Source: Clostridia bacterium
GTDB lineage: Bacteria > Bacillota > Clostridia > Oscillospirales > Feifaniaceae
Length of the DNA: 64,000 nucleotides
Direction: 5' to 3'
NCBI GenBank assembly: GCA_017427525.1
Contig: JAFRSP010000022.1
Location: forward strand, 1-64,000
Made by a program: the position numbers and the translations under genes. Positions within the stretch are counted from its first letter, which is position 1, and the number at the start of each line of letters is the position of its first letter. Below, one piece after another: positions 51,642 to 56,610 of the stretch. The notes beneath the pieces were generated by a model that was not told where the DNA came from, did not search any database, and worked only from the letters and a program-made list of their open reading frames with translations.

Positions 51642-52523
51642 TCACGGGGCCTGTTTTCGCCTTCGCCACTCCCGCAGAGTGACGCGAAGCGTTTGGAGGC
51701 AGAGCGAAAGATCGGTCAGGGTCGTAAAAAAGATCACGGTGTTCAGCAGAGCGTCCACACGAACGAGCGGCGTTCCGTGAATGACCACGTCGGCGGCCCA
51801 GTAAAGGGGGTCGCGCACAGATTGAAAAAGCGGAACGCCCAGAGTGGTCACCGGCATGAGAAGCATAACCGAAAGTGCAAGGGTGGCGGCAAAGACCCCT
51901 TTGCGTTGGATTTTGAGAAAAATATCCGGGTCGAGATCAGGGAAGAGCATGGAGGTGGAGACTGCAGGGTTGAGGAAGACCAGGGCAAGCATGAGCAGAG
52001 ATTGCTTCGGGAGGTCGCGCGCCTCCTGCCACGGGAGAGAGCGCAGGATGCCGAGGATCTGACGCCACTGGGTTTGACAGTAAAGCGTGACAAGGAGAAG
52101 AAGGGTGATGGAGGGAAGCAGCAGGTGAGAAAGGCGAAACAATGTCGCATCGCTGTGACGCAGAGAAACGAGAGGAGCCGCCAAAAGCAGGGCGGAAAGC
52201 GCCAAAATCGGCGTGTGCGGCAGGAAGGTGGTGTGGAGGTTGAGAATGGTGAAATAAGAGATCACGGCTCCGTGCAGCAGAGAAAGCCCGGTGAGAAACC
52301 ACATCAGCGAAAGGGGAAAACGACCCTTTTCCAAACAGAGCAGGGAGAGCAGCCTGAGAAACAGGGGAGCGAGAAGCAGCATGAGGGCCCCTGCGATTGC
52401 CAGAGCAGCAAAGGCGAGGCAGCTGCCCTCGAGCAGTTTGGAAGCTGATAGGAGACTGCCGAGCAGGGAAACGGTCAGCAGAGCGGACAGATAGGAGTAG
52501 GGGGTGGTTTCGTTTCTGTTCAA
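51642..52523 (-). CDS. Spore germination protein, GerB (B-subunit) type, short
   Basis: This 293-residue membrane protein has about eight hydrophobic helices. It is called from operon context and from weak similarity to GerAB (APC-superfamily transporter fold). Family members are usually about 360 residues, so this one is short. Known conserved residues are hard to see. It is the last gene of the ger operon, overlapping gerC by 4 bp. In germinant receptors the B subunit binds the germinant. Confidence 0.72.
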   Translation of the reverse strand: MNRNETTPYSYLSALLTVSLLGSLLSASKLLEGSCLAFAALAIAGALMLLLAPLFLRLLSLLCLEKGRFPLSLMWFLTGLSLLHGAVISYFTILNLHTTFLPHTPILALSALLLAAPLVSLRHSDATLFRLSHLLLPSITLLLLVTLYCQTQWRQILGILRSLPWQEARDLPKQSLLMLALVFLNPAVSTSMLFPDLDPDIFLKIQRKGVFAATLALSVMLLMPVTTLGVPLFQSVRDPLYWAADVVIHGTPLVRVDALLNTVIFFTTLTDLSLCLQTLRVTLREWRRRKQAP

Positions 52524-53278
52524 GGCTGCACACTCCTTTTGCCGCCTTCAATCGTCAGCGTGCCGGAATAGGCGATGACATTCTGCTCGGAATCGCTTTG
52601 CTGCGCCGAAGAGCCGGAGTCGGAAGAATCGGGCTTTCCGGAAGAGGAAGAACCCCCGGAGGAACTGCCTTCGCCGGAGAAGTCTGGCTCAGATATGCCT
52701 TCCCTTTGAGGGATCAGGGTAAGCCGAGGGACCGAGACCGACTGCCCATCGCCCATCATCGCGTTGTAAAGGCGATACAGGGGGCAGGCAGGGATCTGCC
52801 CGAAGGCAACCTGGTCGTCGAGCATCTGATTGATGGCGAGCGCGTTGGGATCGGCTCCCATCGAACAGCTCAAGATCTCGTATGCGGCGCACCCTTGCGC
52901 CTCCGCCACCAAAATCCCGAGTGAAAAATCATGCGCACGGAGGAACCAGTCGAGCAGGGAAACTCCCTCTTCCTCGAAGAGGGATTCTTCCAGCAGGATG
53001 AGCTTGGCGTGATTCCAGTAGGGAGTGCGCCCGAGCTGACGGATCAGCCCCTGCACGCAGGAGTCTAGGGAATCGCCCTCTGCGCAGATCAGCCGGTCGG
53101 TCGCCTTACCGTCCTCGAAGCTCATGAGCTCCACCGTCATGAGATAGGGTAAATTCTCTCCGTGATCGATTGAAAGACCTGTGGCAATGTGGCGCTGATT
53201 GAGTTCGGTATAATCCCAGCAAGAGCAAAGAAAGAACGCAAATAAGAACACGATCAGGCAAGTCCCCAGTTGTTTCAC
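52520..53278 (-). CDS. Spore germination protein, Ger(x)C lipoprotein, truncated
   Basis: This 252-residue protein has a signal peptide with lipobox (FFLCSCW; lipid on the Cys before W) and then the family N-terminus CWDYTELNQRHIATGLSID. The N-terminal Ger(x)C domain is present to about residue 200. A Ser/Gly-rich linker follows and the protein ends within a few strands. Usual members are about 370-400 residues, so the C-terminal domain is missing. The GTG start overlaps the gerA stop and has an aaggagaag SD. Confidence 0.85.
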   Translation of the reverse strand: MKQLGTCLIVFLFAFFLCSCWDYTELNQRHIATGLSIDHGENLPYLMTVELMSFEDGKATDRLICAEGDSLDSCVQGLIRQLGRTPYWNHAKLILLEESLFEEEGVSLLDWFLRAHDFSLGILVAEAQGCAAYEILSCSMGADPNALAINQMLDDQVAFGQIPACPLYRLYNAMMGDGQSVSVPRLTLIPQREGISEPDFSGEGSSSGGSSSSGKPDSSDSGSSAQQSDSEQNVIAYSGTLTIEGGKRSVQP

Positions 53279-54783
53279 GAACGACTTCTCCTTTTTTTGG
53301 CAGAAAAGATTGGAAAGGCGCGGAGCTTTCTCCAAGAGTCGCGCAGAAAGACATCGCCGGTCTGGATCTGTGAAGAGGGATAGAGGAACTGCGTGTAGGG
53401 GATCCCGAAGCTTTCGATGGAGCACATTTGAAGCAGCAGAAGATAGAAACCGACCACGAAGCCGAGGTAGCCCGAGGTTGCCGTGAGAAGCAGAATGGCA
53501 TAGCGATAGAGCAGCGAAGCTCCGATCAAACGGGGAAGCATCACACCTGTGACACAGGAGAAGGCCGTGATAATCAGAATCGGGGCTCCGATATAACCGG
53601 CTTCGATGGCGGCCTGCCCGAGTACGATGGAGCTGACCACTGCCAGAGCCTGTCCGACATTGCTGGGAGAACGGGCGCCGCTCTCCCGAAGCAGATCGAA
53701 GATCACAAGCAAGAGGATCGCCTCGTTCAGAGTGGAGAAGGGCACGGTTTGCCGCGCTTTTGCGATGGTGATGGCAAGAGCAGAGGGCAGCAGATTCGGC
53801 TGATAACAGGCGAGCGCCACAAAGAAGGCAGGGATCAAAACCGAGACAAAAAAGCCCGTGATGCGCAAGATCCGCTGGAAGGAGGCGTAGTGGTGACTGA
53901 CATAGTAGTCTTCATTGGATTGAAAGAGCTCCAGGAAGAGAAAGGGGGCCGTGATGGCCGAGGGAGAGCCCTCGCAGAAGATGGCAATGCGTCCTTCGAG
54001 CAGCTTGGCGGCGACGATATCGGGTCTCTCGGTCGAGCCGATGGTGCGGAAGGGAGATGAGTCGCTGTCGTGGATCTGCTCGGCGATATAGTTGCTGTCG
54101 AGCACAGCGGTGGCGCGTACGCCCTTCAGACGCCGGCGAGCCAGGTTTAAGACCTTCAGGTCGACACAGCTTTCAAGGTAGCAGATGCTGGCAACGTTTT
54201 TGAAGGTGTCGCCCAAAATATGAAATTCCGCTTTGAAATCGCTGCCGGTGAGGCGGCGGCGCACCAGAGAGAGATTGGTCAGGAGCGATTCGTTGAAGCC
54301 CTCGCGCGGTCCCTGCAGAACCCGCTCGTTATCGGGCTCCTCCACAGCGCGCACCGTCCAGTTTTTGGTATCGATCACAATGGCCTGCTCCATCTGATCA
54401 ATGAAGAGCAGGGTGTTTCCAAGGGAGAGCAAAAAGGCCAGCGTTTCAAAGCTGGCTTCGGTCTGACAGTCGCAGGCAGAGAGCACGCACCGAATCACCA
54501 TGTCCGGCGAGGAACCGCCCAGAGGGGCAAGCTGAAGCGGGGGGATAATATCTTCGTTGAGCGTGCGGCTTTTGATCATACCGTCTATAAAATACAAAAC
54601 AGCACGGCAGCCGTCGATCCCCTCAAGCTCACGGACACGAAAGGTGCCGTCGTTTTGAAAGAGGTCCTCCATCTGACGGCGGTTCTCCGCAAGCTGCGAC
54701 GTCATCTGCACGCGGGCCGGCTGCGGGCCGACAGAGGATGGTGTTTTTTTGTTGCTCATGTCGGAAGCGGAGTTCTGTTTCAC
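53275..54783 (-). CDS. Spore germination protein GerA (A-subunit) type
   Basis: This 502-residue protein has a soluble N-terminal part (about 30-310) and about five C-terminal membrane helices. It shows the family motif EGRIAIFCEGSPSAITAPFLFLELFQSNEDYY and the PALAIT-like SALAITIAKARQTVPF, matching GerABKA (PF03323). It is part of the inner-membrane germinant receptor. The GTG start has an aaagggga SD. It is the first gene of the operon and has a clear sigma-G promoter upstream. Confidence 0.95.
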   Translation of the reverse strand: MKQNSASDMSNKKTPSSVGPQPARVQMTSQLAENRRQMEDLFQNDGTFRVRELEGIDGCRAVLYFIDGMIKSRTLNEDIIPPLQLAPLGGSSPDMVIRCVLSACDCQTEASFETLAFLLSLGNTLLFIDQMEQAIVIDTKNWTVRAVEEPDNERVLQGPREGFNESLLTNLSLVRRRLTGSDFKAEFHILGDTFKNVASICYLESCVDLKVLNLARRRLKGVRATAVLDSNYIAEQIHDSDSSPFRTIGSTERPDIVAAKLLEGRIAIFCEGSPSAITAPFLFLELFQSNEDYYVSHHYASFQRILRITGFFVSVLIPAFFVALACYQPNLLPSALAITIAKARQTVPFSTLNEAILLLVIFDLLRESGARSPSNVGQALAVVSSIVLGQAAIEAGYIGAPILIITAFSCVTGVMLPRLIGASLLYRYAILLLTATSGYLGFVVGFYLLLLQMCSIESFGIPYTQFLYPSSQIQTGDVFLRDSWRKLRAFPIFSAKKRRSRS

Positions 54784-54852
54784 GGTTTTCCCCTTTCACA
54801 GGCTCAAGACGGCCTGTCGTTTTCCGAATTTGAATCGAGCGGTCTTTGTGAA

Positions 54853-54882
54853 AAGTATGAACGAAAAAACGCCGCAATATTC
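54853..54882 (-). promoter_or_regulatory. Sigma-G promoter of the ger operon
   Basis: On the minus strand: -35 GAATA (54882-54878), an 18 bp spacer and -10 CATACTT (54859-54853). This fits the forespore sigma-G consensus and is identical in both elements and spacing to the promoter before sigG at 59885-59914. Confidence 0.8.
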
Positions 54883-54941
54883 AAAAGGCCGCAAAGTGAT
54901 GGAGCACGGTATCGAAAGGCTGCACCGGAAGAAAACAGATA

Positions 54942-54984
54942 GAAAAAAGGCGGAGCGGTCTCTTTTAAGAGACTGCTCCGCCTG
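54942..54984 (-). terminator. Terminator of the zinc-ribbon/barrel gene pair
   Basis: On the minus strand the stem AGGCGGAGCAGTCTCTT / AAGAGACCGCTCCGCCT is followed by TTTTTT. It separates the pair from the ger operon downstream. Confidence 0.88.
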
Positions 54985-55029
54985 ACAGGGCGCATCCGAC
55001 ATGGCTGCCGCGCCCAAATGAATGGTAAA

Positions 55030-55599
55030 TCATGCCTTTACGAGCAGGGAACCCGAGCGAAAAACAAGCCCTTTCTGTGCCACATGCAGGGTGTTCTCAT
55101 AGCCGGCCGCGCCCGGCTCGCCGCCCGCCACATTCGAATCAAGCTCCTGAATGGTGAGCTTGGTCTCCCTTCCGTCCTGCAAAAGCGTGACAGAGTCGCC
55201 GAGATTGAACTTCCCAAAGAGCACGTAGCCTGTGACGAAGATTTTCGGAGACTTAAACAGCCCCTGCTTTTCTGTGGAGCAGGAATCGATACGAAACACC
55301 GCGTTCCAGGGGGCGTACTGCTCCCGCAGATCCTCCAGCTTTTCGCCGGCCTCTCCGATCACGTGGATCACTTCCTCGACGGTGAGATCTGCAAGCGGAT
55401 CGATCCGGCGAACCTCTCCGTGAGAAAACTCTTGGCTGGCGGGATAGAGAAAGCGCAGCCGCCGCACGCAATGATCGCAAAGAGGCGAGTTGTCTTTCAA
55501 TCGGATCGCATTGCCCTCGTAAACCGAATAGGCCGACCGGCCGCAGATCACACAGGGGCCCAGATCCATTCTCTCGGTTGCATTGATAACGTCTGACAT
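55030..55599 (-). CDS. Zinc-ribbon / beta-barrel protein A, function unknown
   Basis: This 189-residue protein has one four-cysteine zinc site (C16-x2-C19...C41-x2-C44), a helical middle with RIDPLADLTVEE, and a C-terminal domain (about 118-189) whose G-x-V-x-x-G...G-D-x-V...G...L pattern looks like an EF-Tu domain 2-type barrel. It shares this layout and two motif blocks with the gene just upstream. The ATG has a gggaggag SD, 15 bp after that gene. I do not recognise a named family, and the barrel call is by pattern only. Confidence 0.75.
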   Translation of the reverse strand: MSDVINATERMDLGPCVICGRSAYSVYEGNAIRLKDNSPLCDHCVRRLRFLYPASQEFSHGEVRRIDPLADLTVEEVIHVIGEAGEKLEDLREQYAPWNAVFRIDSCSTEKQGLFKSPKIFVTGYVLFGKFNLGDSVTLLQDGRETKLTIQELDSNVAGGEPGAAGYENTLHVAQKGLVFRSGSLLVKA

Positions 55600-55614
55600 G
55601 GTGCACTCCTCCCG

Positions 55615-56448
55615 CTAATGAATGGCAAGGATATCGCCGGGATAGATGCAGGTCGCATCCACTTCCAGAACCAGTTGGCCGTAGCACCCTTCGCCGATGC
55701 GGTCGGCCTTTTCCATGCTGAGCGTATCGCTGACCGGCGTCTCAACGCGTTTAATTTCAAAGGAATAGCTGTTTTCCCGCCGCTTGACTTGAGCTCGCCT
55801 GCCCGCCTCGATCTCGCCCAGCAGGACCGTGCCGGAGATGGCGTATTCGTTTTTGATCACGATTCGGCCTCTGCTGGCTTCATGGATGATCCGCTTGTTG
55901 TTGTCCACGCGAAAATAGGCCGGAGCGTTCCCATACCGTTCCCGGCGCAGCCCGCGCTCCTTTTCGGCGTCCTGAAGGGAGGAGAGGAATTCATAGGAGC
56001 TGAGCTCCCGCAAGGGGTCAATCCAGAGGCTTTCTTCCTCATAGTCGTTTTTGTCGATATCGTCCGATCCCCGGTAGACATATTGCCAGGTATAGTCTTT
56101 GGGATACAGGATGCGGACTTTTGATACGCAATTGCTGCAGACTCTGTGACCGTCTTTCAATTCCACAGCCAGGCGGTCTTTTCGGCCGATGGGCTGTTTG
56201 CAGCAGGCACAGGTCGAGACATCGATCTCCGGCTTGAGCGCGTCGGTATGTACCCGCTCAACACTCCTTACCTCACGCAGGGGCCGGACTGGAGCGCCCT
56301 GAGCCTCATCCAGTGCGGCGCGGATCTCTTCGATGTCCAGATATTCCCATTCGTCGTCCGGAAAGCGCTGCTGCACCTTTTTATAACAGTTGTCGCAAAA
56401 GCCTTCACGCGTCATGGGTTTTCCGCAAATGGGACAGGTGTGCTCCAT
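55615..56448 (-). CDS. Zinc-ribbon / beta-barrel protein B, function unknown
   Basis: This 277-residue protein has two four-cysteine zinc sites (C5, C8, C18, C21 and C80, C83, C104, C107), the block LKDGHRVCSNCVSKVRILYP, then WIDPLRELSSYE and a C-terminal barrel-like domain (about 200-277: SGTVLLGEIEAG ... CIYPGDILAIH). The second zinc site, IDPL motif and barrel match protein A, so the pair are paralogues; B has an additional N-terminal zinc ribbon. ATG 56448 has a perfect aaggaggag SD. Nucleic-acid or ribosome binding is possible but purely inferred. Confidence 0.75.
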   Translation of the reverse strand: MEHTCPICGKPMTREGFCDNCYKKVQQRFPDDEWEYLDIEEIRAALDEAQGAPVRPLREVRSVERVHTDALKPEIDVSTCACCKQPIGRKDRLAVELKDGHRVCSNCVSKVRILYPKDYTWQYVYRGSDDIDKNDYEEESLWIDPLRELSSYEFLSSLQDAEKERGLRRERYGNAPAYFRVDNNKRIIHEASRGRIVIKNEYAISGTVLLGEIEAGRRAQVKRRENSYSFEIKRVETPVSDTLSMEKADRIGEGCYGQLVLEVDATCIYPGDILAIH

Positions 56449-56610
56449 CCTTTCTCCTCCTTGCATTCCTGTTCTCTGCGCATGCTTTGCCCGCTTTTCC
56501 GATGTTGGGCCGTGCGTGTGTAAACGGTTGTTTTTTTAAGCACAGTTTGCCTGTGTGGTTCGCAATGCCGCCCTTTTGCTCGAGGTTGCAGCCCCGGGGG
56601 AGAGATCTGC

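Follow-up and report, generated by a model that had tools for sequence, protein, structure and literature searches.

A rare family of paired clostridial proteins combining a zinc finger with a predicted translation-factor domain-2-like barrel and no GTPase

Introduction

Domain 2 of the translational GTPases (PF03144; EF-Tu, IF2, EF-G and LepA) is a barrel, and for its known relatives the ligand is mostly an RNA or a protein of the translation apparatus. Single barrels of this kind are also found without a GTPase: the archaeal proteins PF0907 (4pgo) and Pbp11 (7anu) of Pyrococcus are about 90 aa long, which is too short for a zinc finger of the type described below. Pbp11 is described as a small tRNA-binding protein.

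A second reference point is DUF4428 (PF14471), a family with an N-terminal CxxC..L.DG..CxxC finger. Some homologues of SNIPE that lack a transmembrane segment carry DUF4428 (PMC13190303). SNIPE itself is an anti-phage nuclease that has a GIY-YIG nuclease domain and DUF4041.

Here we describe two adjacent genes, A and B, in a 64,000-nt stretch of DNA from a Clostridia bacterium (hereafter the window). They belong to a rare family of small paired proteins in which a zinc finger is joined to a domain-2-like barrel, with no GTPase.

Results

Paralogous genes in a two-gene operon

Gene A (minus strand, 55618–56448; ATG at 56448) encodes 277 aa, and gene B (minus strand, 55033–55599; ATG at 55599) encodes 189 aa and starts 15 bp past the stop codon of A. 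The initial annotation had described tandem paralogues that form a two-gene operon, each gene with a strong Shine–Dalgarno sequence and the operon with its own terminator, and the analysis agreed on each count. BLASTP aligned A with B at 22% identity over 167 aa (E=6e-10). Shine–Dalgarno sequences are visible upstream of A, within AAGGAGGAGAAAGG-ATG (minus strand, 56449–56464; GGAGGAG), and upstream of B, in the 15-bp spacer (minus strand, 55600–55614; GGGAGGAG). RNA folding placed an intrinsic terminator 3′ of B (minus strand, 54940–54983), with a 15-pair stem, GGCGGAGC..GCTCCGCC, followed by a T tail (−29.1 kcal/mol, z −4.81). The stem was absent from the output of a simple terminator scan, perhaps owing to its internal mismatch, and an Rfam search of the locus returned no match. 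Judged by sequence, the paralogy of A and B is old, and the two genes form one operon.

Sequence, alignment and predicted structure together gave the domain layout. In A, an extra N-terminal zinc ribbon (aa 5–21) is followed by a low-confidence linker, a DUF4428-like finger (C80/C83/C104/C107), a helix (aa 151–171) and an EF-Tu-domain-2-like barrel (about aa 177–277). In B, the finger (C16/C19/C41/C44), a helix (aa 74–94) and the barrel (about aa 100–188) follow in the same order. The block L-K-D-G/N..C-x2-C...R..Y-P and the barrel pattern G.V..G...P-G-D recur in the alignments of 10 A and 10 B proteins. Of the motifs first proposed as common to the two genes, this block and I-D-P-L do recur across A and B proteins, although I-D-P-L is missing from some B proteins.

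A DUF4428-type finger below the family threshold

The four-cysteine zinc site seen in the initial annotation is conserved in both alignments. Cysteines 16, 19, 41 and 44 are invariant across the aligned B proteins, and the finger keeps the L.DG turn that is a feature of DUF4428; one A row begins at a contig edge and so enters the alignment without its first CxxC. Window A also carries the second zinc ribbon that had been noted, CPIC-x9-CDNC (C5, C8, C18 and C21; minus strand, 56386–56436; DZR_2 E=0.0056). The ribbon is real in this protein but missing from the other A proteins aligned.

Searches of A and B against Pfam and NCBIfam gave nothing above curated cut-offs, in line with the earlier view that the genes belong to no recognised family. 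The DUF4428 score of window A fell just below threshold (25.0 bits against a gathering cut-off of 27.8), B had no DUF4428 match, and sub-threshold DUF4428 matches were found in 11/20 A/B members; further members scanned were likewise under the cut-off. As judged by sequence, the A/B finger is of a sub-threshold DUF4428 type. A profile with no known function, phrog_888, matched 5/10 members of alignment A1 (best E 1e-5).

The likeness to DUF4428 proteins lies in this N-terminal finger. In the seven DUF4428 proteins scanned from the same order, the C-terminal region differs from that of A and B (two have SHOCT, the other five lack any named domain), and none of the seven gave a domain-2 match. 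One of the two family members in the distant genome G1117, the second, starts MGLFNKK..CSVCG and thereby resembles the DUF4428 proteins of the order.

A predicted domain-2 barrel without a G domain

AlphaFold models of B and A had mean pLDDT values of 86.5 and 77.7, respectively. When both were compared with the PDB using Foldseek, the best matches were EF-Tu, IF2, EF1A and aIF2gamma or small stand-alone relatives. The B model matched 2crv, an IF2 C-terminal-domain entry (TM 0.61 by target length, rmsd 2.9), and the A model matched the stand-alone barrels 4pgo (TM 0.83 by target length, rmsd 1.7) and 7anu (TM 0.76 by target length, rmsd 2.5). Whole-chain rmsd values against EF-Tu were large, which we attribute to alignments that extend beyond the barrel.

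Profile comparison pointed the same way. Using hhalign, a profile of 22 barrels aligned with one of 28 domain-2 sequences (one row, L150, is on the wrong strand and adds noise only) collinearly over 73 columns, with E ~1e-5 and a score of 34.6, against a best score of 16.4 in 150 column shuffles. An earlier profile made of EF-Tu only had been marginal (score 20.1 against a shuffle maximum of 17.8); the broader profile was built after that result was seen, and the shuffles were rerun for it. Weak Pfam domain-2 matches occurred in three members (best E 0.022), within the barrel where coordinates were shown. For GTP_EFTU_D2 (PF03144), two members scored 12.7 and 13.5 bits, below the gathering cut-off of 30.3, and window A and B gave no match to this model. 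Searches of the PDB by sequence with single A or B proteins found nothing relevant. Sequence matches to PDB entry 4p99, an antifreeze protein with a tandem repeat (E 1.5e-8), were discounted, since no single stretch passed alone.

These data support the assignment of both C-terminal domains, as predicted folds, to the EF-Tu/IF2 domain-2 barrel class, as the initial annotation had proposed from glycine and valine spacing. The predicted C-terminal folds of A and B agree with each other, where unrelated folds would have spoken against that proposal. The G domain has no counterpart: no P-loop ([AG]xxxxGK[ST]) was found in the 10 A and 10 B proteins, and no GTPase-domain Pfam match in window A and B or in other members.

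The structural matches raise the possibility that A and B act as domain-2 mimics without a GTPase, binding directly to tRNA or the ribosome and tuning translation under particular conditions. Both the prominence of translation-factor domain 2 and small stand-alone barrels among the top matches and the tRNA binding described for Pbp11 would fit. Against this, the ligand does not follow from the fold alone, the net charge of most members is close to neutral or acidic, and no translation gene is among the common neighbours of the loci. We regard direct binding of this kind as a tentative alternative.

Rare occurrence and constant pairing

Profile searches, run on genomes that represent a fraction of each group and liable to miss lone genes that have diverged beyond the reach of the profile, found matches in one of eight genomes of the window's family, 6/394 of the order and 2/87 of one other family. 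The class sample yielded no new pair, only the window's genome and a single short match within a frame of 737 aa. Of the 398 genomes in the phylum sample, four matched: besides the window's own, these were G1117, which has a full pair, and two genomes whose short matches cover the zinc finger only. The pair is thus rare and patchy across Clostridia. Where it occurs, its two members stay together. Two adjacent members in the same direction were found at all nine other loci near the window's (two each in G014, G038 and G056; one each in G266, G149 and L037) and at the distant G1117 locus; at one of these loci (L036/L042), the contig edge truncates A.

Such a distribution resembles that of accessory genes, and, with the similarity to DUF4428 and the occurrence of that domain in SNIPE homologues, it could be read as the sign of an envelope- or phage-response group in which the finger serves as a localisation or sensing module, as it would in DUF4428 proteins and those SNIPE homologues. 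The pair has no PADLOC match, however, and was rejected as a defence system on that ground; Pfam detected no nuclease or other effector domain in A or B, the GIY-YIG and DUF4041 domains of SNIPE included, and no defence neighbour is common to the loci. Carriage by phages or plasmids was likewise rejected, as searches of viral contigs turned up no relatives, and phage and plasmid records held no relative of P0002. We therefore consider an envelope or phage response unlikely.

Joint descent of A and B

A tree of 10 A and 10 B proteins (the window and nine other loci) and the two G1117 proteins separated A and B cleanly (support 99/97; 200/200 bootstrap trees). Three corresponding subgroups, moderately supported in B, make up each clade: window/G266/G149, the first pairs of G014/G038/G056, and L037 with the second pairs. 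This correspondence suggests that A and B descend together, and it fits one duplication that would predate the divergence of the ten loci, after which both copies would have been inherited jointly. The two G1117 proteins form a group of their own instead of joining the A and B clades separately, so that pairing may be independent there, or long branches may mislead.

Pairwise dN/dS values (NG86) were 0.10–0.15 in five comparisons within the G014/G038/G056 genus (A and B of L038/L045, A and B of L039/L044, and B of L036/L039), which points to purifying selection on A and B in that one genus; the window, L037, G266 and G149 lie outside these comparisons. The nearest relatives of the window pair are 44% (A) and 53% (B) identical, too distant for a sound synonymous rate. 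Constraint on the window's own genes would be read from their open frames and conserved motifs only.

An apparent insertion between spore genes

The window pair sits between a VanY/GNAT block, beside spoIIGA-sigE-sigG, and a gerA operon. From this position, one could take A and B for a sporulation or germination operon, and the initial annotation had noted the flanking sporulation genes and proposed a search for co-occurrence with them. The same neighbourhood is kept without the pair in two genomes of the same genus, G002 and G003, where DegV, GerB-like, GerAC, GerA, GNAT, VanY, SpoIIGA, SigE and SigG follow in the same order. No A-B was found between GNAT and GerA in either, and the GNAT-to-GerA stretch that holds the pair here (54784–56610, unstranded) is represented by a gap of about 190 bp in G002. 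At the other loci, an all-against-all comparison at E 1e-6, limited by several short contigs, found no common neighbours besides A and B outside the orthologous G014/G038/G056 regions. With unrelated neighbours elsewhere and no conserved linkage to spore genes, a tie to sporulation is not supported; the setting looks incidental, and a sporulation or germination operon is very improbable.

The simplest reading is that A-B was inserted at this site in the window's lineage, which would most simply explain why it adjoins spore genes here; loss of the pair in both G002 and G003 is a history that would also be compatible. The GC content of A-B is like that of its flanks, so the sequence gives no mark of recent foreign DNA.

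Several neighbours are described here in their own right. The GerAC-type germinant protein of the window (52520–53425) is about 300 aa long and matches only the N-terminal Pfam domain, and its G002 and G003 relatives match over the same length. The second pair of G038 and of G014 (L045 and L047) is directly preceded by a gene for a large multi-membrane protein, which did not turn up at the other groups of loci. Small membrane proteins beside the pair in G266 (L040:4102–4632) and G038 (L045, downstream) look alike by eye (VQERA..LGL and VQERAIDIGL), with no link between them in the blastp neighbour comparison.

Discussion

On balance, we lean towards a reading in which A and B are the two subunits of an accessory complex, each combining a DUF4428-type finger with a helical linker and a domain-2-like barrel but lacking a G domain. 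The likeliest role of the pair would be docking and recognition. A and B would form a heteromer; the zinc finger would dock to a partner, and the barrel would recognise its ligand passively, without a GTP switch. That the two proteins probably work as a heteromer is suggested by their constant pairing and matching trees.

As to the target, the ligands of barrel relatives make a modulatory role at the translation apparatus the leading, if unproven, guess, and RNA, tRNA or the ribosome would be possible partners. The net charge, near neutral or acidic in most A/B members, does not favour nucleic-acid binding. A 670-aa protein of the same order (L157:751–2763; G023:C7) has a signal-like start, SLH- and Ig-like segments by eye, and a domain 2 that reads GRGTVLTGKI...; this secreted-looking protein suggests that the barrel is used outside translation in the order. 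Fold alone does not place the pair at the ribosome. A bolder version, in which A and B mimic translation factors without a GTPase and function exclusively as a pair, with barrels that jointly fill a ribosomal or tRNA site, regulate translation and have spread sporadically among gut Clostridia, seems to us a long shot. A survey of the window's own genome (G000) found four domain-2 frames, all of at least 650 aa; tuf is therefore probably missing from this incomplete assembly.

The analysis thus adds a family without a curated model, in which a zinc finger and a translation-factor domain-2 barrel occur in a co-inherited pair that is scattered sporadically through Clostridia. With the ribosome or tRNA as its target, the pair would be a portable translation modulator; if the target lies elsewhere, the pair would exemplify the reuse of domain 2 for binding in general.

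Compared with known systems, the combination of domains is new and the folds are already known. A and B have in common with domain 2 of the translational GTPases the barrel fold and the pattern G.V..G.i..Gd.v with a terminal Gd.l, at about 10–20% identity in structural alignments and with every scanned member under the PF03144 gathering score. Unlike those GTPases, A and B lack a P-loop and have the barrel fused to a zinc finger. PF0907 and Pbp11 resemble them in having a single domain-2-like barrel without a GTPase.
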